From a virus: 28,620 nucleotides of DNA. The stretch's first letter is position 1. Every line of letters begins with the position of its first letter. A model generated the notes under the pieces. The model was not told the DNA's origin, did no database searches, and worked only from the letters and a program-made list of their open reading frames with translations. Positions 3,092-25,560 of the stretch are shown here, one piece after another. The position numbers and the translations under genes are program-made. The stretch lies in the IMG/VR virus record IMGVR_UViG_3300037150_000193, positions 1 through 28,620 of that record; one strand, written 5' to 3'.

Positions 3092-5608
3092 TCATCGCTT
3101 CATCGCATTAGCAAGCGCCGCACCCGAGATCTTCAACCTGCCGAACAATGGATAGAGCCGGCGGAGAGCTTGCGAGAGCGCGTCCACTTGATCATCATGA
3201 GCGGCCGCCGGGAACGTTGTAAGCTCGCTCACCAGAGCTTTAACCCAAGGCGCAATGTCAGGATGCGGAAGGAAGATATTGCGCGCTTCCCATACACTCG
3301 TTACCGCGTGAGCGCGCGCGAGCTTCGATCCGTCAGGCTCAACCGCGAGCAATCCGAAAACTGTTTTCTTGAGGAAGTCGATCACCGCCGGCCCATTGGC
3401 TTTATCTTCAATCAGGATCTCGCGCGAGATCGGATCTTCTGAACGCAACGACGCAACCTCATCGGCCGTCTTTGTGAAGCTCATGCGAGCCCGGCGTTGA
3501 GCGAGTAAGTAAGCGTTCGCCCCTTTCTTGCCCCATTTTTGCCCAACAACGTAATCGGTACCGTCAGTATCTTTGAACGTGCAATCCCACGAATCGATCA
3601 CCTTATCGAAGCTCTTTGGGAGATCCTTCGGAAGATAGTATTGAATGCCGATTTCCTTGAATACGTTGCCTCCGAGCGCCTTAGGGCTCTGCTGATAAAG
3701 AGCTGACCACCAGTAATCTGAAAGCTCATGCTTAAACTCTAAGACTTGCTCCAACGGATGCAGCGCGGGAACGAGCGCGCCTTTGGGTAATGCGGGGTTG
3801 TAGCCTACTTCGTTCGGATCGTTAAGAGCTGGAAACCTCAAGATCGTCAGGCGCGGATTACCGGCGTACATCTCGATTACACGGCCACTCAAATCATCTT
3901 CGGCCCACCTGGTCGCCATGATGATCGTTCCTGAATTCGCGCTCATGCGCGTTTTGCTGGTGGATTGAAACCAATTCCAGATTTTTTCCTTCGTGACTAA
4001 CGATAGAGCTTCCTCGTTATTTTTGATCGGATCGTCAATGATGAAAATATCGGCCGGCTTGCCGGTAAATCCGCCCCCTACGCCATCGCTGATGTAAGAA
4101 CCCGCGCCGCTCGGCGAAGTGAACTCACCATTTCGATTGACGGTATATTTGCGTTTATCCATCGCAACGGGGAAGAGAATTAGATGCTTTGAGCCCGCCA
4201 GGTTGCGGCGAACATCCAGACTCATCGAAGATGAAAGGCTTGAAGAATAACTCGCCGCCGCGATGCGAATATTCGGCTGAGATCCCAACAGGAACGCCGG
4301 CAACTTACGCGATACCATCTCTGAGTTGTGAGTGGGGATCAGGGAGTGCCCGATCAGGTACATCCCATCTTCCCTGTCCACCTGAATGCAATGGCCTTGC
4401 TTCCCCCAATCCCCAAACTCAATCGATTTGATTGCAACTCGCCGTTTCTTGGAGAAAACTTTAATTTTCTTTCGTTCTAAGCGACAAGGAATTTCTAGAT
4501 CCGGGTTGAAGCCCACAACCCAGTAATCTCGCGTTCCCTGAATGCCGCTCGTGCTCAATTTCGGCGATTCCTTTACGATCGTTGCGCGCCAACCGAACGT
4601 TGCGACTAGCTGAGCGACACAATCCGCCAAACTGCGCTCAGCTGTTGTAAATACAACTCTCCCGTTTTCCTGATAAACGTATCCGTCAGTATCGATGAGC
4701 CCTGCAAGCAATTGAAGACGAGCGTCAATCGAGCTTGTCAAGTACTGATCGGGAATGAATTTGGACTTCCATTCTTTTGGCTTGGACGCTACTCCAGCCG
4801 CTTTGAGATCTTGCCAAAGCCCCTTAAAGGAAATCGTAAGAACGCCCGTCTCCTGGTGAGCCCAAAGCCCCATGACCGGGTAGCCATCCGCAGCAATCCC
4901 GTTCGCAACTTCAATATCCATCCAATCGCTGGAAATGCGAGGTGCGACTCGCGTGCCATCCCCAAGCCAAGCCCCGAGAGTATAGGGAGCAACAGGAAGC
5001 TTGCTCGCAACGCCACACAGTGGCGTAACGTGGGGCAACTGATAGTTAAAGCGAGAACCCCGCTCGCCCTGAATACCGCTAACAAGTAGAGGATTTGAGC
5101 GAACTGAGCGTCTCCCCAACGTCATCATTTGACGAGCCGATAAGACACAATCTCGCTTTAAATCTCGACTTCTCACAGCCCATTCGTGATTCTCGTGACA
5201 AAAGAAAACAGAGCCATCGGTCAGTTCGATTCGGCAATTCGAAGGGGATTTGCCGGAAACTGCAATTACTCGGCAAGTCGAGCCGTCTGGGGAAAACAGC
5301 TCGTCGCCCACAGCGAGTTCGCTGTGTGTCTTCCACCCACTCGCAGAGAGTACGGGAGTCGAGTCTTCAATTTGCTTGCCATGTTGCGGAGGAGCTTCGA
5401 GAATAAGAATCGGACGAAGGCCGGCGTTCACATCCTGAATGAATTTATCAAGCGCCGCACAAACAACCTCGGAGAACGCGCTTACCTTGAAATCAGGGGA
5501 AGTGTATTTGATGTAATCGAGCAATCGCTCGCAAGCTAAGCGCCTTTCGAGTAACCAGGCTCCCGCCGCCTGGGGGCATTCTTCCTCGGCTATTGTCTCA
5601 AGTTCCAT
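3092..5608 (-). CDS. terL: Terminase large subunit (TerL) interrupted by an intein
   Basis: This is the ATP-driven DNA packaging motor and headful/cos nuclease: 838 residues as translated, 488 after removal of the 350-residue intein. The P-loop is split. APPQHGK (72-78) is followed by the intein (79-428), and the motif resumes with Ser429, restoring HGKSEMVSRK. Walker B is IFIIDDP (Asp525, Asp526), and MATRW (about 564-568) looks like the coupling motif. The C-terminal RNase H-like nuclease has IDSWD (Asp672), LIEDK (Asp735) and HDDQVDAL (Asp805, Asp806, Asp809). Without splicing the ATPase site cannot form, so packaging depends on splicing. The ATG at 5608 has no ribosome site but has TATTAT seven bases upstream. 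It follows terS by 127 bases. Confidence 0.95.
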   Translation of the reverse strand: MELETIAEEECPQAAGAWLLERRLACERLLDYIKYTSPDFKVSAFSEVVCAALDKFIQDVNAGLRPILILEAPPQHGKQIEDSTPVLSASGWKTHSELAVGDELFSPDGSTCRVIAVSGKSPSNCRIELTDGSVFFCHENHEWAVRSRDLKRDCVLSARQMMTLGRRSVRSNPLLVSGIQGERGSRFNYQLPHVTPLCGVASKLPVAPYTLGAWLGDGTRVAPRISSDWMDIEVANGIAADGYPVMGLWAHQETGVLTISFKGLWQDLKAAGVASKPKEWKSKFIPDQYLTSSIDARLQLLAGLIDTDGYVYQENGRVVFTTAERSLADCVAQLVATFGWRATIVKESPKLSTSGIQGTRDYWVVGFNPDLEIPCRLERKKIKVFSKKRRVAIKSIEFGDWGKQGHCIQVDREDGMYLIGHSLIPTHNSEMVSRKLPAFLLGSQPNIRIAAASYSSSLSSSMSLDVRRNLAGSKHLILFPVAMDKRKYTVNRNGEFTSPSGAGSYISDGVGGGFTGKPADIFIIDDPIKNNEEALSLVTKEKIWNWFQSTSKTRMSANSGTIIMATRWAEDDLSGRVIEMYAGNPRLTILRFPALNDPNEVGYNPALPKGALVPALHPLEQVLEFKHELSDYWWSALYQQSPKALGGNVFKEIGIQYYLPKDLPKSFDKVIDSWDCTFKDTDGTDYVVGQKWGKKGANAYLLAQRRARMSFTKTADEVASLRSEDPISREILIEDKANGPAVIDFLKKTVFGLLAVEPDGSKLARAHAVTSVWEARNIFLPHPDIAPWVKALVSELTTFPAAAHDDQVDALSQALRRLYPLFGRLKISGAALANAMKR
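4325..5374 (-). other. Class 3 intein with LAGLIDADG homing endonuclease inside TerL
   Basis: Intein residues correspond to TerL 79-428. The first residue is Gln79, not Cys, Ser or Ala. Block A is QIEDSTPVLSASGW; block B ends CHENHEW (His141, Trp143); block F is GHCIQVDRE with Cys407 where Asp is usual; block G is IPTHN followed by Ser429. Trp at B:12, Cys at F:4 and Thr at G:5 (Thr426) are the signature of class 3 inteins, in which the block F cysteine starts splicing instead of residue 1. The endonuclease motifs are LGAWLGDGT (211-219) and LLAGLIDTDGYV (300-311), both with their acidic residue, so homing activity is probably intact. Insertion between Lys and Ser of Walker A is a typical intein site. 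Confidence 0.9.
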
Positions 5609-6914: not shown

Positions 6915-7547
6915 ATGGAAATTATAAGCAGAGATCAAGCGCTTGCAAGCGGTCAACGTTATTTTTTCACGGGGAAACCTTGCCGGCGCGGTCATGTATC
7001 GAAGCGTTATACGCTCAATGGGGGATGTGATGAGTGCATTCATCCTCGATTTGCCGTACAACCGGAGACTCCTAGAATTATAGATATTCGTCAATCTGAT
7101 CCGGCCAGAACGGAATTGGAGCGCGCCAAGATTGATCTTCAACGTAAACGATTAGAGCTTCGTGAATCTCAGCAACAATTTCAAAGGCAAAATCGAACGG
7201 TTATTCAGGAGCGCCGGCAAGCCAGGCGCGATGCGCTCTCTCGTATGCTTTCAATTGCCGTGAGCTTCCCGCCCGATAAAACAGAGCAATTTTACGATGT
7301 GGCCTATGCTTGCGCCATTATTCGTTGCCCATCTCTTGAGCGTCAAGACGTGATCCTAAAATCTAAACCTAGGGAAACAAATCAACGAGTTAGGGCGTTC
7401 TCAAGTGATACACCAGCTCTGCAAGAATACGCTCGCTCTTTGTTTAGTTCATCTACCATAAAACCTATTATTTTGAAAAATTGGCCGGGACAGGAAATAG
7501 TGAAAGCTGAGGAAGATGGGGATTGGCCCCAAGGCGATCCACGTTAA
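6915..7547 (+). CDS. Zinc-binding protein with YFTGKPC-x-RGH motif and coiled coil
   Basis: This 210-residue protein has an N-terminal module SRDQALASGQRYFFTGKPCR plus RGHVSKRYTLNGGCDEC, a four-ligand zinc motif (Cys, His, Cys, Cys) common in phage proteins, often attached to HNH-type or DNA-binding domains. Residues about 65-105 are strongly charged and helical (ERAKIDLQRKRLELRESQQQ), a predicted coiled coil. A middle helical domain follows and the protein ends with the tail VKAEEDGDWPQGDPR, repeated in the next gene. Two in-frame ATGs lie upstream (6897, 6903), but they fall inside the promoter; the ATG at 6915 fits a leaderless start. Function unknown; it is the first gene of the rightward operon. 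Confidence 0.75.
   Translation: MEIISRDQALASGQRYFFTGKPCRRGHVSKRYTLNGGCDECIHPRFAVQPETPRIIDIRQSDPARTELERAKIDLQRKRLELRESQQQFQRQNRTVIQERRQARRDALSRMLSIAVSFPPDKTEQFYDVAYACAIIRCPSLERQDVILKSKPRETNQRVRAFSSDTPALQEYARSLFSSSTIKPIILKNWPGQEIVKAEEDGDWPQGDPR
7498..7547 (+). repeat. Copy 1 of a direct repeat encoding a shared C-terminal tail
   Basis: The first 32 bases (7498-7529) are identical to 7837-7868, and the remaining 18 match at most positions, including the stop codon. It encodes VKAEEDGDWPQGDPR at the end of the 210-residue protein. Confidence 0.9.
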
Positions 7548-7568: not shown

Positions 7569-7886
7569 ATGAATTACCCAACCCCAACCCCAATCGAGCG
7601 AGTCTCCAACCGCCTCCTTAGTAGAAATGAACAGCGCACATTATTTGCAGATTGCAAATGGTCGTCAGATTGGCAAAAAATAGTGGTCTCAACCCCAAAA
7701 GGGCCAAAGTCTCTTGGGCGAAAAATTTTCAACATATATTTTGGGGGATTCACTTTCATGCTTGATGAGAACAACGAACGATTAACTAGGTCGGCTTGGG
7801 AAGCATTCAAGGCATTAGGTTGGGCTCGGACGCACGTAGTGAAAGCTGAGGAAGATGGGGATTGGCCCGAGGGAGATCCCCGTTAA
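7569..7886 (+). CDS. Free-standing copy of a module of the phage PrimPol/SF3 helicase
   Basis: This 105-residue protein aligns along residues about 14-80 with residues 324-387 of the helicase at 11247-13604. Both have NRLLS-x2-EQ-x2-LFA at the start, then FGG-[YF]-[ST]-FM-[ML]-D-x-NNER and R-x2-WEA-[YF]. In the helicase this segment links the PrimPol part to the SF3 ATPase. Here it stands alone, without catalytic motifs, and ends with VKAEEDGDWPEGDPR, the tail of the preceding protein. The ATG at 7569 has an AAGGAA ribosome site eight bases upstream. It may be a dominant-negative or helper version of the module, or a remnant kept by recombination; both are inference. Confidence 0.8.
   Translation: MNYPTPTPIERVSNRLLSRNEQRTLFADCKWSSDWQKIVVSTPKGPKSLGRKIFNIYFGGFTFMLDENNERLTRSAWEAFKALGWARTHVVKAEEDGDWPEGDPR
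7837..7886 (+). repeat. Copy 2 of the tail-encoding direct repeat
   Basis: This is the second copy of the 7498-7547 element, encoding VKAEEDGDWPEGDPR at the end of the helicase-module protein. The two copies lie 339 bases apart in the same orientation and frame relative to their genes. Confidence 0.9.
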
Positions 7887-8812: not shown

Positions 8813-9421
8813 ATGCTTTACACGAATCTGAAACTGCTGAGAGAAAACAACGCTTGTTCTTCGGGGCTCGCAACTCTGATAGCCTCTCTCCCGAAGAAAC
8901 ATACCGCAACGAAGCTCATTCCTTTAGGCCACATCCTCAAATCGAATGGGTTGAAACATGGGATTTGGGCTCTCAGAGCAACCACTAAAGACGCGCGCAA
9001 AATTGCAGCGAGAATGGCAATTGAATTTGCGCGCCAATCCCTCAAGAATTTTGAAAAGCTCTATCCTGAGGATAAGCGGCCGCGTACAGCTCTCGAAGCC
9101 GCTACAGATTTTCTTGATGGAAAAATAACGCTCGAAGAAATCGAGAGCGCGGCGAGCGCGGCGTGGAGCGCGGCGTGGAGCGCGGCGAGGAGCGCGGCGT
9201 GGAGCGCGGCGAGCGCGGCGAGGAGCGCGGCGAGCGCGGCGGCGAGCGCGGCGAGGAGCGCGGCGGCGAGCGCGGCGGAGAGCGCGGCGGGCGCGGCGGA
9301 GAGCGCGGCGGCGTGGAGCGCGGCGTGGGGCGCGGCGGAGAGCGCGGCGGAGAGCGCGGCGGTTAAAAAACAAGAGAAGATTTTCTTGAAAATTTTATCC
9401 GCGAAAAGTGGCCCAAAATGA
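8813..9421 (+). CDS. Imm5-like protein with Ala-Ser-Trp/Glu/Arg repeat tail
   Basis: This 202-residue protein has an N-terminal helical domain with WALRATTKDARKIAARMAIE, FARQSLKNFEKLYPEDKRP and RTALEAATDFLDGKITLEEI (about 52-110). This matches the pattern of proteins annotated as Imm5-like putative immunity proteins, also found in phages, where a DDKRP motif is followed by long alanine-rich repeats. Residues about 112-184 are nearly perfect repeats of SAA followed by W, R, E, A or G, a long alanine-rich helix. The tail is basic (KKQEKIFLKILSAK). The start has a GGAAGG ribosome site. A biological role in phages is not established, and the immunity label comes from other contexts. Confidence 0.7.
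   Translation: MLYTNLKLLRENNACSSGLATLIASLPKKHTATKLIPLGHILKSNGLKHGIWALRATTKDARKIAARMAIEFARQSLKNFEKLYPEDKRPRTALEAATDFLDGKITLEEIESAASAAWSAAWSAARSAAWSAASAARSAASAAASAARSAAASAAESAAGAAESAAAWSAAWGAAESAAESAAVKKQEKIFLKILSAKSGPK
9146..9360 (+). repeat. GC-rich tandem repeat inside the Imm5-like gene
   Basis: About 215 bases are built almost entirely from AGCGCGGCG units, some with an inserted TGG, AGG, GAG or GCG codon (9- and 12-base periods). The block is 75-80 percent G+C by eye, with strong G-over-C skew. All changes keep the reading frame, so length can vary in 3-base steps without a frameshift. Long open frames on the other strand and in +1 are by-products. Confidence 0.9.
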
Positions 9422-13605: not shown

Positions 13606-14322
13606 TCAGCGGCAAGCCTTCTCGTACTCAGCAATTGCAATGCGAGTAGAGGCAATTTGAAAGTAGTTCGGATCTTGCTCGATTCCAATGAACTCTCGGC
13701 CTGTATTGACGCAAGCAACGCCCGTGGTTCCTGAGCCCATGCAATTATCGAGAACAGTGTCGCCTGGGTTCGTGTAAGTTTTGATGAGATATTCCATCAA
13801 GGCGACGGGCTTTTGAGTTGGATGGAATTCCGCTTTAATGTCCACATCAAATTTAATGACTGAACGCGGATAGCGAGTTTCGCAATTTTTTACTTCAGAA
13901 AAATTTACCGCCCCATAGCAATCTCCAGAATCCCCGGGTTTATGGGAATTAGAATAGGCTTTCCCTGTTCCCATTTGAGGATTATAAATAGGCTTTCCGA
14001 AAACGAGAACATCTTCATGGGCTCGCATTGGCCGTCGTTTAGCATCTAAGTGGCCTGTTGATTTATTTTTTTCCCAAATCCATTGATACTTGAATTGCTC
14101 TCGGTTGCTCATTACTAAAGCGGAAGTGAAAGGCTGAGCGGCCGTCAATACGATAGCTCCGCGCGCAACCCGGGAATACGCCGCCCATAACGCATCGAGA
14201 TGAATGATCGTATCCCATTTATTGTTTGTAGTCCCATACGGCAAATCGCAGAGGATTAAATCAACCGATGCGGGCGCGAGAGTGGGCATGATTTGAAGGC
14301 AATCGCCTTGTAGCAAGAGCAT
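13606..14322 (-). CDS. DNA methyltransferase 1 (beta-class amino-methyltransferase)
   Basis: This 238-residue SAM-dependent enzyme methylates an exocyclic amino group (N6-adenine or N4-cytosine). The catalytic motif is DLPYG (26-30), a DPPY variant. The cofactor-binding loop LDNCMGSGTTG comes near the C-terminus (191-201). The order catalytic - target recognition - cofactor defines the beta class. Residues 5-32 and 167-238 are nearly identical to the second methyltransferase at 17646-18386; the middle (about 33-166), which contains the target-recognition part, is only weakly similar. The ATG overlaps the stop of the upstream gene (TGATG). No restriction endonuclease of matching type is visible, so it is probably an orphan protective enzyme. 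Confidence 0.9.
   Translation of the reverse strand: MLLLQGDCLQIMPTLAPASVDLILCDLPYGTTNNKWDTIIHLDALWAAYSRVARGAIVLTAAQPFTSALVMSNREQFKYQWIWEKNKSTGHLDAKRRPMRAHEDVLVFGKPIYNPQMGTGKAYSNSHKPGDSGDCYGAVNFSEVKNCETRYPRSVIKFDVDIKAEFHPTQKPVALMEYLIKTYTNPGDTVLDNCMGSGTTGVACVNTGREFIGIEQDPNYFQIASTRIAIAEYEKACR
13611..13824. repeat. Direct repeat A, copy 1 (methyltransferase C-terminal part)
   Basis: These 214 bases match 17651-17864 with nine mismatches by eye, about 96 percent identity, in the same orientation, 4040 bases apart. A second block, 14228-14310, matches 18292-18374 with two mismatches (N-terminal coding end). The sequences between the blocks differ strongly. Confidence 0.93.
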
Positions 14323-15900: not shown

Positions 15901-17646
15901 TCACTCATGAGCAAAGTATATTTCCGCGTTGATACTCCCGTCAATACCGAACTTGGAAAGCTCAGTAAGTATCTTCGTGCTAAGTTCATTAGCTTCGCGG
16001 CTCCCAAGTAACTGAGCATTACCTACATCGATACCAAAGCGAAAATAAAAACGCCGATAGCTCTCAGATTCCTTATGCCCTCTCGCGTGTTCCATTCCCG
16101 CAAACCAGGCAATAGCGTTTCGCAACGCTCGTTGAGCATCTTGCCGTTTCATGTGATTGGAGCGGCCGCCCATTTGCGCCTCAATTGAAAGCCCCTGAGG
16201 AGCGTAAAAATCCCCATCAATGCGCGAGATACTTCCACGGAGAGCCGTCAGGGTTGCGGCATCCAACTCAGTTAAATCGCCGTCAACGAACTCAGGGCTA
16301 CTCCGCGAACCGGGCTCAGGATAGAAACCGCAGTAAGGGCAACAACGATGAGTGCGCTCATAGGGTTGTAAGCAATCTCCGTTAGCGCAAACTCTGATCG
16401 GAATAGCGTCAGATTTCTTTGAACCTCTTTTATCTCTTCTATCGAGTGACCATTCCCGCCGAGCATCAGGGAGCCCATGCCGAAGAACATTATTAACATG
16501 GTCGATGATTATTGCGGTTGGCTTGTTACTCTCAGCAATCGCGCGCTTACGTCCATCGTTGCCGAGCGTATCCCAAATGGAACTTAGATATTCTGAAATC
16601 ATCAGGCGGAGAGCCCGCCCAAATTGTTGAGAGTAGAGCGCGAAGCTCTCAGTAGGCCGCGCGAAACTTACAACCTCGATAGCCGGCAAGTCGAAGCCTT
16701 CACCGAATAAATCAACATTCACCAGTTGAAGAATTTCCCGATTTTTGAAGCGCCGAAGAATGTTGGCTCGAAGAGAGTCCGGGGTTTTCGCGCTAACAAC
16801 TTCGGCGGGAACACCTTGCGCGCGATAGGCCGCCGCCGTCTCGCCGGCCGCTTCAACGTCAACGGCAAACGTAACCCCGAGCTTACCGGGAGTGAGACGC
16901 AAATAATGCTTGACGGCATCGCCGGTAATACTCGAAGAGTGTACGGCTTTCCTGAGTTGATCGGCATTGTAATCACCCGTAGCTTGACTTATTTTCACAT
17001 CATCTAGGTTCAAATCGGAAGGGGGAGCGAAGATCCTGTAATCGGTGAGATACCCCATATCGATAATTTCCCGCATGGTTGGGGCGAGAACCATTGCATC
17101 AACCAATCCATCAGCATGACGGCCCAGGCCGCGCCCATCAGCTCGCAGAGGGGTAGCCGTGGGAAAGAGCCCCCGAGCATTCGGGAACATCAGCGCGGCC
17201 CGCCCCCATTTATTTTCCTTTAGAACATGGTGACCCTCATCCTGAACCTCTAAGCGAATCTGTTGAAACCAAGGCTCGGCCGCCATCCTGACGATAGTGT
17301 CAACACCCCCAACTCCTGTTTTTGCGGTTGGATCGAGGAAGGTGTATCCAAGCTCGGCGACTTGTAGAGCCGTGATTACTCGCACCAGGGAGGAACCTTT
17401 GCGGGCTCCCGCTATTCGATGCCTAACGCCGTTCCGCGCGAGCGCAATGCTGATTTGGGAGACTAGCTCCTGACGGTGAGCAATGGCGATTGAGGCTCCC
17501 GGCTCATCGTAAAGAATTTTCGAGAGTACGACCGTCTTACCGCTACCAGTGGCGGCCACTGGCATTACATTCACGGCCCCATTACTCCAAGCGGAATAGA
17601 TGTTTTGCTCTAACCGTTGCTGGAAAGCTCGAAGGGGAACCGGCAT
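15901..17646 (-). CDS. SF2 DNA/RNA helicase (DEAD/DEAH type)
   Basis: A 581-residue superfamily 2 helicase related to the ResIII/UvsW-like group. Motif I is ATGSGKT (32-38), motif II DEGH (136-139), motif III TATP (163-166). The C-terminal RecA domain has VNVDLFGEGFDLPAIEVV (motif V region) and QQFGRALR (motif VI). A zinc knuckle, CANGDC and CCPYCG, lies at about 410-435, followed by an extra C-terminal domain with YRRFYFRFGID. The frame opens at a TTG, but the ATG at 17646 overlaps the methyltransferase stop (TAATG) and is preferred. It probably acts in branch migration, origin melting or repair; the partner is unknown. Confidence 0.88.
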   Translation of the reverse strand: MPVPLRAFQQRLEQNIYSAWSNGAVNVMPVAATGSGKTVVLSKILYDEPGASIAIAHRQELVSQISIALARNGVRHRIAGARKGSSLVRVITALQVAELGYTFLDPTAKTGVGGVDTIVRMAAEPWFQQIRLEVQDEGHHVLKENKWGRAALMFPNARGLFPTATPLRADGRGLGRHADGLVDAMVLAPTMREIIDMGYLTDYRIFAPPSDLNLDDVKISQATGDYNADQLRKAVHSSSITGDAVKHYLRLTPGKLGVTFAVDVEAAGETAAAYRAQGVPAEVVSAKTPDSLRANILRRFKNREILQLVNVDLFGEGFDLPAIEVVSFARPTESFALYSQQFGRALRLMISEYLSSIWDTLGNDGRKRAIAESNKPTAIIIDHVNNVLRHGLPDARREWSLDRRDKRGSKKSDAIPIRVCANGDCLQPYERTHRCCPYCGFYPEPGSRSSPEFVDGDLTELDAATLTALRGSISRIDGDFYAPQGLSIEAQMGGRSNHMKRQDAQRALRNAIAWFAGMEHARGHKESESYRRFYFRFGIDVGNAQLLGSREANELSTKILTELSKFGIDGSINAEIYFAHE

Positions 17647-18386
17647 TATCGGCAAGCCCTTTCGTACTCAGCAATTGCAATGCGAGTAGAGGCAATTTGA
17701 AAGTAGTTCGGATCTTGCTCGATTCCAATGAACTCGCGGCCTGTATTCACGCAAGCGACGCCCGTTGTTCCCGAGCCCATGCAATTATCGAGAACGGTGT
17801 CGCCTGGGTTCGTGTAAGTTTTGATTAGATATTCCATCAAGGCGACGGGCTTTTGAGTTGGATGAACTGAAGTAACGCTGCTCCCCGCGTTGCTGATGGA
17901 AATTATCGTTTTCGGATACCATTCGTCATACACTTTTCCTTGCGGAGCATTACTTACTCCGCCCATTATTTCTGTTCTAGCGTATTCAGTTTTTCCTCTC
18001 CGTTCAATTTTTTCAGGCGGCCTTTTTACCATTTGTGGATTGTAAGTGGGAGCATTTTTATAAAAAACAGAGATACATTCACTTTGAGCCATCGGCCTTT
18101 TCTTAGCAACGAGATGGCCCCTTGCCGTTACTTTATCCCACGTCCAATCATAACGATAATCTTTGATATTTGAGCAACGTAAAAAGCTGCTAAAAGGCTC
18201 ACTCCCAGTCAATACAATAGCTCCCCGCGAGAGCCGCGCATATTCCCTCCACAAAGGTTCAAAGGGAATGATCGAATCCCACTTACAAGCGGTAGTTCCA
18301 TACGGCAAATCGCAGAGGATTAAATCAACCGACGCGGGCGCGAGAGTGGGCATGATTTGAAGGCAATCGCCTTGGATTAGTCGCAT
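17646..18386 (-). CDS. DNA methyltransferase 2 (beta-class, paralogue of methyltransferase 1)
   Basis: This 246-residue enzyme shares with the 13606-14322 gene the QGDCLQIMPTLAPASVDLI start, DLPYG catalytic motif, HPTQKPVALMEYLIKTYTNP and the MGSGTTG cofactor loop through to the AEYE-x-ACR end. The middle (about 33-174) is different: WDKVTARGHLVAKKRPMAQ is recognisably homologous, but the specificity segment with PPEKIERRGKTEYAR and IMGGVSNAPQG is unrelated. It should therefore recognise another sequence. The ATG at 18386 is preferred over an in-frame TTG at 18404. It is the first gene of the leftward replication operon and diverges from the RAMA gene. Confidence 0.9.
   Translation of the reverse strand: MRLIQGDCLQIMPTLAPASVDLILCDLPYGTTACKWDSIIPFEPLWREYARLSRGAIVLTGSEPFSSFLRCSNIKDYRYDWTWDKVTARGHLVAKKRPMAQSECISVFYKNAPTYNPQMVKRPPEKIERRGKTEYARTEIMGGVSNAPQGKVYDEWYPKTIISISNAGSSVTSVHPTQKPVALMEYLIKTYTNPGDTVLDNCMGSGTTGVACVNTGREFIGIEQDPNYFQIASTRIAIAEYERACR
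17651..17864. repeat. Direct repeat A, copy 2
   Basis: This is the partner of 13611-13824 (nine mismatches over 214 bases). A companion block at 18292-18374 pairs with 14228-14310 (83 bases, two mismatches). Recombination between the A copies would remove the SF2 helicase, nuclease, MazG-like and HTH genes. Confidence 0.93.
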
Positions 18387-18443
18387 AAATCTCTCATTCC
18401 TCAATACTTAAAAATTTTTTCGCAAAGTGAGCAATATTGACCA

Positions 18444-23186: not shown

Positions 23187-25192
23187 TTCCCCCTCCGCCG
23201 TTAGGGAAGCCGGTAGCGATATGCGATACAGAGGCGTACCCTAACTATTGGTTGCTAAAGATCCGGGTCAGAAATGGCCCGGTTTTTACCTTTTCTCTTC
23301 GCGCCGGGCAATCCTTCGATCAAGGAACCTGCAAGCGAATCGAGTATCTTTTCCGCCTGTTCACAGTGATAAGTTTCAACGGCAATTACTACGATGTGCC
23401 GATGATCTCGGCCGCTCTATGCGGCTTCACTTGCGAACAGCTCAAATGGGTAAATGATGAAATTATCGTTCAACAGAAAAAGCCCTGGGAGCTTGGGCTC
23501 TCTACCGAGTGGCGACCGCCGGATCACATCGATGTAATGGAAGTTCTACCAGGCGCGGGAAGTCAAAAGCAATACGCCGGCCGCATCCACTGTAAGACGA
23601 TGCGGGATCTCCCCTATGAGCCTGACGCATATCTGAGCGAAGCTCAAATTCTCGAAGTCGATTCCTATTGCGAAAACGATTTGAGCGTTTTGGATGATTT
23701 GTTCGTTGCCTCCGAAGCCATGCTTTCGATGCGCGAGCATTTGAGCGCGCGTTACAAAATGGATCTTCGCTCAAAGTCTGATGCTCAGCTCGCCGAAGCC
23801 GTTATTAAGCGCCGATGTGAGGAAGCTATTGGCTCGCGGATCTTCAAACCCGAGATCGATTGGAACATCCGATTTCGCTACGAGCCGCCGGAATGGTTGA
23901 CCTTTCAGGGCGACGGGTTGAAGGCCGCCTTTGGGGCTATCAAGGAAGCTATTTTCACCTTAGGGCCAACCGGGGCAGTTGTCATGCCCCCGCAGTTGGA
24001 TGGGCTTGAAATTCCAATCGGTAAAGCGATTTACTCTCTCGGGATTGGGGGCCTTCACTCTAAAGACGGGGTAGCGGTCCATAAATCGGATTCGGAGTGG
24101 GTAATCCGAGACTATGACGTTGCGAGCTATTACCCAAATTTGATTCTGAACTCGGGCAAGTATCCCAAGGCTCTCGGGCCGATGTTCCTTGAAGTCTATC
24201 GAGCGTTGAAGGATGAGCGGCTTGCCGGTAAACAGAGGCAAAAGGAATTAGAGAAACAGGGGTTGAAGGGTACCCCCGAATGGCTCCGCGCCCAGGTGGA
24301 TAACGAAGGCGGAAAGATCATGATTAACGCAACCTGCGGAAAAACCGGGAACCTTTACAGCGTTCTTTTCGCCCCCGAGATGTTGATTCAAACCACGGTA
24401 ACGGGGCAGCTCGCGCTCCTGATGTTGATCGAGTGGCTGGAAATGCAAGAAATCGGTGTGATCTCAGCAAACACTGACGGGGTGATTATTAGGTGCCTTC
24501 GCTCCAAAATTCCAATTGTCGATAGCATCATTGAGTATTGGCAAAAAGTTACCGGCCTGGAGATGGAGAGTGGGGAGCTGAGCGCGATTTACTCCCGAGA
24601 CGTAAACTCGTACATTTCAATCAAGACTGACGGAACCACGAAACGCAAAGGGGAGTATTCTACGGCCGGGCTGATAGAGAAGAAAAATCCCGATGCTGAA
24701 ATTTGCGCCGATGCGGTTGCTGAATTTCTCTCGAAGGGAACGCCGATTCTTTACAGCATCGCGGCTTGCCGGGATATTCGTAAATTCGTCAAGATCCAAA
24801 AGGTTGCCGGGGGAGCCGTCAAGCTATGGGGAGAGGGGCCGCGCAAAAATGCCCTGGTGCGCGAGATGGAGCCGGTTCTAATAGCTCATGGGTGGACTAA
24901 ACAGGGCCGTAAATGGTCTCAAGGGCCAACCCTTTGCACCGATGCGGCCACGGCGTACAAGAGTTGCTTTCAACCTCAGCGGCCCGAATACATGGGAAAA
25001 GTTGTCAGGTTCTATTACGGAACGCATTCGCCTGGGCCGATAATCTATAAAACGAACGGGAACCTTGTCGGCAACAGTTATGGGGCTCAACCGTGTATGA
25101 CACTGCCCCCCGAACTGCCTTCGGATATTGACTATATTTGGTATGTCGATACGGCTGAAAAGATGCTCCGAGACGTGGGGTATTACGATTAA
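23183..25192 (+). CDS. Family B DNA polymerase with 3-prime-5-prime exonuclease
   Basis: This 669-residue replicative polymerase is compact for family B. Exonuclease motifs: CDTEAY (Asp15, Glu17), FNGNYYDVP (Asn66, Asp71) and SYCENDLSVLDD (Tyr162, Asp166). Polymerase: GIGGLHS (287-293), motif A RDYDVASYYP (Asp312), motif B GGKIMINATCGK (Lys378, Asn382, Gly386) and motif C SANTDGVI (429-435; Asp432), where the usual DTD is NTD. The last 150 residues carry the thumb and a C-terminal extension ending with YVDTAEKMLRDVG. The start overlaps the ParB-like gene. It works with the PrimPol helicase and SSB; priming is presumably by the PrimPol. I see no terminal-protein gene. Confidence 0.92.
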   Translation: MIPPPPLGKPVAICDTEAYPNYWLLKIRVRNGPVFTFSLRAGQSFDQGTCKRIEYLFRLFTVISFNGNYYDVPMISAALCGFTCEQLKWVNDEIIVQQKKPWELGLSTEWRPPDHIDVMEVLPGAGSQKQYAGRIHCKTMRDLPYEPDAYLSEAQILEVDSYCENDLSVLDDLFVASEAMLSMREHLSARYKMDLRSKSDAQLAEAVIKRRCEEAIGSRIFKPEIDWNIRFRYEPPEWLTFQGDGLKAAFGAIKEAIFTLGPTGAVVMPPQLDGLEIPIGKAIYSLGIGGLHSKDGVAVHKSDSEWVIRDYDVASYYPNLILNSGKYPKALGPMFLEVYRALKDERLAGKQRQKELEKQGLKGTPEWLRAQVDNEGGKIMINATCGKTGNLYSVLFAPEMLIQTTVTGQLALLMLIEWLEMQEIGVISANTDGVIIRCLRSKIPIVDSIIEYWQKVTGLEMESGELSAIYSRDVNSYISIKTDGTTKRKGEYSTAGLIEKKNPDAEICADAVAEFLSKGTPILYSIAACRDIRKFVKIQKVAGGAVKLWGEGPRKNALVREMEPVLIAHGWTKQGRKWSQGPTLCTDAATAYKSCFQPQRPEYMGKVVRFYYGTHSPGPIIYKTNGNLVGNSYGAQPCMTLPPELPSDIDYIWYVDTAEKMLRDVGYYD

Positions 25193-25560
25193 TGCCAAAA
25201 TTTAAGCATGGTACAACCACTCATCAAAACGGGGGATACCCTAGGCTTTCCGTTGGCCCTCAGCGGTATCGCTATGTCCATGTGTTAGTGGCCGAAGCCT
25301 TCCTCAGACGCCCCTTAAAAAAGGATGAACACGTTCACCATATCGACGGAGACGTTAGAAACCCAAAATGGACGAATCTACTCATCGTCAATCGGGAAAT
25401 TCACAATGCCGTGAGCAACCGCCAATACTACTATCTCAAGCAAAAATATGAGCAAGAGAATGCGGCCTGGTGGGCATATTTTGATGTGACAGGAGAAACC
25501 CCGAAGGAAGCGAAAGAGCGTCAGGATAAGGAAGTCGAATTCGATCCGGCCAACCTCTAA
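25192..25560 (+). CDS. HNH endonuclease
   Basis: This 122-residue HNH_3-type protein has GGYPRLSVGPQRYRYVHVLV, AEAFL, then EHVHHIDGDVRNPKWTNLLI (about 45-65), the catalytic His-His and Asn of the beta-beta-alpha metal fold, and NREIHNAVSNR. Such free-standing HNH genes in phages are often homing endonucleases next to conserved replication genes, or nicking enzymes in packaging. It begins on the last base of the PolB stop (TAATG), so it depends on PolB translation. It ends with a 4-base convergent overlap with the leftward membrane-protein gene. Confidence 0.87.
   Translation: MPKFKHGTTTHQNGGYPRLSVGPQRYRYVHVLVAEAFLRRPLKKDEHVHHIDGDVRNPKWTNLLIVNREIHNAVSNRQYYYLKQKYEQENAAWWAYFDVTGETPKEAKERQDKEVEFDPANL

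Follow-up and report, generated by a model that had tools for sequence, protein, structure and literature searches.

Inteins of class 3 are recognised by a Trp-Cys-Thr (WCT) triplet, that is, Trp at position 12 of block B (B:12), Cys at position 4 of block F (F:4) and Thr at G:5; they require no Ser, Thr or Cys at residue 1, and they have His at G:6 and Asn at G:7 followed by Ser or Thr at +1. In the DnaB-1 intein of Mycobacterium smegmatis, which splices via a branched intermediate at block F, mutation of His65, Trp67 or Cys118 each abolished splicing (PMC5222942), and three WCT inteins in which the F:4 Cys was replaced lost all splicing (PMC5222942). In the structure of MchDnaB1, the Cys, His and Thr residues form a protease-like triad (PMC7664689). 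A survey from 2020 counted 1,701 class 3 inteins, 82.5% of which carry LAGLIDADG motifs (PMC7891396). Among mycobacteriophages, inteins reside most often in the large terminase subunit (TerL), and the Lys-Thr site in its P-loop has been called classic (PMC5050341).

TerL class 3 inteins at the P-loop are found in Porphyromonas phage005b (PP754928), Streptomyces anulatus plasmid CP109520, Bacteroides phage B124-14 and Gordonia phage Verity. Here we describe a further one, located in a 28,620-base stretch of DNA (the window) that constitutes the incomplete IMG/VR virus record IMGVR_UViG_3300037150_000193. With a probability of about 0.95, we take it to be a class 3 intein that splices in cis, contains a LAGLIDADG homing endonuclease and occupies the classic P-loop site of a phage TerL.

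An intein within the Walker A motif of TerL

The precursor and its parts are arranged as follows.

3092-5608, minus strand: TerL precursor ORF, 838 aa (N-extein, intein and C-extein; Terminase_6C, TIGR01630, phrog_38)
5375-5608, minus strand: N-extein, residues 1-78, ending at Walker A ...APPQHGK, delimited by empty-site TerL homologues
5375-5395, minus strand: Walker A segment APPQHGK, residues 72-78, parted from Ser429 by the intein
4325-5374, minus strand: class 3 intein of 350 aa (residues 79-428), including the LAGLIDADG endonuclease
3095-4324, minus strand: C-extein, residues 429-838, whose first residue (Ser+1) is the Walker A Ser

The ORF matches the TerL families Terminase_6C (4.3e-16), phrog_38 (1.6e-84) and TIGR01630, and domain matches together with empty-site homologues identify a phage terminase large subunit with an N-terminal ATPase bearing Walker A and an RNase H-like nuclease. 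It is open through both exteins, and the insert lies in frame between Lys78 and Ser429, so that Walker A reads APPQHGK/S, where the slash marks the insertion point. A sequence comparison revealed about 50 TerL homologues from other viral contigs in which the same site is empty, with 0 extra residues; their identity is 60-71% to the C-extein and mostly 51-72% to the N-extein. In one of them (L180), APPQHGK/SEIVSRKLP is read straight through, and across the 42 bases that surround the insertion point, empty alleles agree at up to 36 positions (L182, L200). Agreement on both the protein and the DNA level is the pattern expected for insertion at a conserved coding site. With the intein limits fixed by these homologues, it becomes clear that Walker A is split between Lys and Ser, as the original prediction had proposed, and the spliced length of 488 aa given there equals the sum that we calculate from an N-extein of 78 aa and a C-extein of 410 aa. 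Since the intein breaks Walker A, it is sound to expect from the sequence that ATP-driven packaging should depend on splicing. The intein-bearing TerL is the only one in the record, which is incomplete, so that a second TerL could lie elsewhere. Matches of the C-extein to Pizza proteins proved to be low-complexity-like alignments to repeats and were set aside.

Other inserts occur in related terminases. In three close TerL relatives (L191, L192 and L212), the same GK/S site holds a different intein of about 318 aa that ends in TVCIQVDSPSHLFLAGRSMTPTHN; the site has therefore been invaded more than once. Two further relatives (L229 and L230) have an insert of about 317-325 aa elsewhere in the C-extein, which probably marks a second intein site.

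Class 3 signature, endonuclease domain and predicted fold

The diagnostic segments of the intein are the following.

5372-5374, minus strand: Gln79, intein residue 1, codon CAA
5180-5197, minus strand: block B core with His138 (B:7), His141 (B:10) and Trp143 (B:12)
4955-4987, minus strand: LAGLIDADG motif 1, PYTLGAWLGDG, with P130, Y131, G134 and W136-G140 (intein numbering) invariant in 38 family members
4682-4711, minus strand: LAGLIDADG motif 2, LLAGLIDTDG, whose two Asp do not vary among 38 family members
4388-4390, minus strand: Cys407 at F:4, the presumed initiating nucleophile, aligned to Cys118 of 6bs8
4325-4333, minus strand: block G Thr426-His427-Asn428 (THN), the C-terminal splice site

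In intein numbering, given here in parentheses, these residues are Gln79 (1), His138 (60), His141 (63), Trp143 (65), Cys407 (329), Thr426 (348), His427 (349) and Asn428 (350), with Ser429 at +1. A phmmer alignment of intein residues 5-68 and 328-350 to the M. smegmatis DnaB-1 class 3 intein 6bs8 pairs His63 with His65, Trp65 with Trp67, Cys329 with Cys118, and the C-terminal Thr-His-Asn with its counterpart; likewise by phmmer, His63, Trp65 and Cys329 line up with the corresponding residues of 6rix. The alignment with class 3 inteins, run as a check, thus places Cys407 on their F:4 Cys, and a location outside block F is ruled out. The WCT triplet consists of Trp65, Cys329 and Thr348, residue 1 is the non-nucleophilic Gln1 exactly where it had been predicted, and the C-terminal junction reads THN/S. 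None of His63, Trp65, Cys329, Thr348, His349 and Asn350 varies across an alignment of 38 relatives. The class 3 assignment made in the original prediction from Trp143, Cys407 and Thr426 therefore stands, as the triplet coincides with that of a proven class 3 intein, and residue 1, Ser+1, the tree and the fold comparison all agree with it.

By analogy with the characterised relatives, Cys407, helped by His141 and Thr426 (the counterparts of the MchDnaB1 triad), would attack the peptide bond between Lys78 and Gln79 to give a branched thioester at block F. The N-extein would then be transferred from Cys407 to Ser429, cyclisation of Asn428 aided by His427 would release the intein, and an O-N shift would yield the 488-aa TerL with Walker A restored.

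Both LAGLIDADG motifs are intact, as had been predicted, and the motif region matches LAGLIDADG_3 (2.3e-9) and Hom_end (6.5e-5) in Pfam. Asp139, Lys205, Asp228 and Asp230 of the intein are invariant in the 38-row alignment, and the domain combines the two helices and acidic residues of a LAGLIDADG homing endonuclease with a matching predicted fold. Empty terL alleles exist in related phages as possible targets; judged from characterised relatives, the endonuclease probably cuts such alleles where the conserved codons of Walker A lie and thereby allows homing.

This conservation bears directly on a reading in which the intein has decayed and no longer splices, within a dead or duplicated terL. 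Decay does occur, as the only earlier class 3-like intein without the F:4 Cys is a pseudogene (PMC3196547), but here the ORF is intact across both exteins, all clade-invariant splicing and LAGLIDADG residues are kept, and the interrupted Walker A belongs to the only TerL of the record, which makes this reading very improbable. Even less probable is a class 2-like intein, in which Ser+1 would attack the N-terminal junction directly and Cys407 would be dispensable: a non-nucleophilic residue 1 is indeed shared with class 2, but the class 2 inteins known by 2014 were all orthologues of Mja KlbA with Ala1, Ser G:6 and Cys+1 (PMC4031507), whereas the present intein has Gln1, His G:6, Ser+1 and the full WCT triplet, whose F:4 Cys could not be replaced in any of the three WCT inteins mentioned above without loss of all splicing (PMC5222942). 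On signature and conservation, both readings were rejected in favour of a splicing class 3 intein.

An AlphaFold2 model based on the 38-row alignment is confident over its whole length (pLDDT 94, pTM 0.91). Its best full-length structural match is PI-SceI (1ef0, 1vde; Z 27.8), which resembles it in the whole HINT plus LAGLIDADG architecture. In contrast to the present class 3 intein, PI-SceI is a class 1 intein of yeast VMA1. The model also matches I-Tsp061I and I-DmoI. The best mini-intein matches are the class 3 structures 6riy (Z 18.5) and 6bs8 (Z 18.3), at 1.8-1.9 A, which count as tied because Z differs by less than 1; the gap to the lower-scoring class 1 intein gp41-1 (6qaz, Z 15.7) is larger. 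That the closest mini-intein folds of the model are class 3 DnaB inteins supports the class 3 assignment. These Mycobacterium DnaB-1 mini-inteins (6bs8, 6rix/6riy; PMC5222942, PMC7664689) share with the present intein, apart from the fold, the WCT triplet, His B:10, THN/S and insertion at GK/S, but they are without an endonuclease domain, reside in a different host gene and have Ala aligned at B:7.

The terminase clade, its residue 1 and its serine variants

In tblastn, the intein matches 702 phage records, a count far beyond chance, and in 686 of these the match covers 80% or more of the intein. Alignment-based scans retrieved at least 496 viral stretches and 114 bacterial or archaeal stretches; in the genome collection, a single-sequence scan gave no match and the alignment query gave these 114. 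The inteins of phage005b, CP109520, B124-14 and Verity align over the full length with 36-38% identity and agree in gene, GK/S site, WCT, His B:7 and LAGLIDADG endonuclease; differences lie in sequence divergence and in residue 1, which is Glu in B124-14 and Leu in Verity. The combination of Gln1 and WCT at GK/S is already present in phage005b and CP109520. With the TerL1-a P-loop inteins of mycobacteriophages (PMC5050341) the likeness is one of insertion site, which follows the Lys of Walker A and precedes its hydroxyl residue; their hosts belong to the Terminase_1 family with Thr in place of the Terminase_6C match found here.

In a tree of 115 inteins, the intein falls inside a clade of 84 rows (SH-aLRT 99), in which terminase P-loop inteins bearing His at B:7 predominate and every member has WCT except for four cases with Ser at F:4. 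Outside of it are DnaB-type and other Ala1 inteins as well as the single class 1 type sequence (L016), on a long branch; with only one class 1 sequence, the tree backs clade membership more firmly than class 3 monophyly. The present intein sits on a long branch (0.95) and is at most 49% identical to any relative, so that, on sequence alone, a subtle loss of activity is possible. The intein is one more well-formed and diverged member of a known and abundant TerL class 3 family.

Within this family, Gln at position 1 is routine. Residue 1 of the 80 distinct His B:7 clade inteins is Leu in 38, Gln in 27, Glu and Ala in 6 each, and Asn, Ser and Lys in one each. Gln1, the second commonest start after Leu, is therefore no exceptional feature, contrary to the rarity implied originally. 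Most rows closest to the present intein in the tree begin with Leu or Ala, and its Gln1 probably has an origin separate from that of the other Gln1 groups. His138 in block B is present as predicted; however, it is not unusual but the clade norm, since B:7 is occupied by His in 92 of 172 relatives and this His is conserved to at least 90% in the 38-row alignment, and we do not regard it as an anomaly. Block B of the TerL clade thus reads HxxHxW, compared with TxxH in DnaE-type class 1 and the DxxH reported for class 3. We consider it unlikely, though conceivable, that His B:7 activates the N-terminal junction; if so, its role would be a clade-specific variation on class 3, common to at least 80 distinct inteins including the present one.

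In four distinct inteins of the TerL clade (L043, L053/L264, L064/L263 and L073/L075/L260-L262), F:4 is occupied by Ser, encoded by TCA, TCT or TCC, and not by Cys; the intein of L043 lies at positions 1486-2520 of this related viral contig. All four retain Trp, Thr, Asn and the two His residues and are located within long TerL frames that are open on both sides. Three contigs with the L073/L075/L260-L262 version agree without a difference over 5 kb, so that this version is no sequencing error. Thr+1 occurs in 4 of 4 Ser F:4 inteins and in 6 of 76 Cys F:4 clade inteins (Fisher p 1.3e-4, for sequences that are related and not independent). In the tree, three of these Ser F:4 inteins group together in one clade, and L043 stands apart. 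Cys at F:4 of class 3 inteins has been reported without exception in the literature, the one earlier class 3-like case being the pseudogene mentioned above, which is also without His B:10 (PMC3196547). As the 2020 survey chose inteins by Cys F:4 (PMC7891396), Ser F:4 inteins would have been missed. These TerL inteins may represent a naturally occurring, serine-based form of class 3 splicing. As members in intact TerL genes, they could serve to test the class 3 need for cysteine, and we regard this finding as worth more than the window itself.

Other features of the record

Two N6/N4 DNA methylase genes (13606-14322 and 17646-18404, minus strand) have near-identical ends (220 nt at 95% and 206 nt at 78%) and different middles. 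This suggests a duplication in which the middle, presumably responsible for target recognition, was exchanged. At 8813-9421 (plus strand), an Ala-Ser-rich protein built from a 12/9-base repeat of the GAGCGCGGC type weakly matches the Imm5-like immunity proteins of Pfam (2.5e-6). Two neighbouring ORFs share a common 50-nt end (7498-7547 and 7837-7886, plus strand; 92% identical) that encodes VVKAEEDGDWP(Q/E)GDPR. A free-standing HNH_3 endonuclease ORF (25192-25560, plus strand; 3.7e-7) is located immediately after the DNA polymerase gene.
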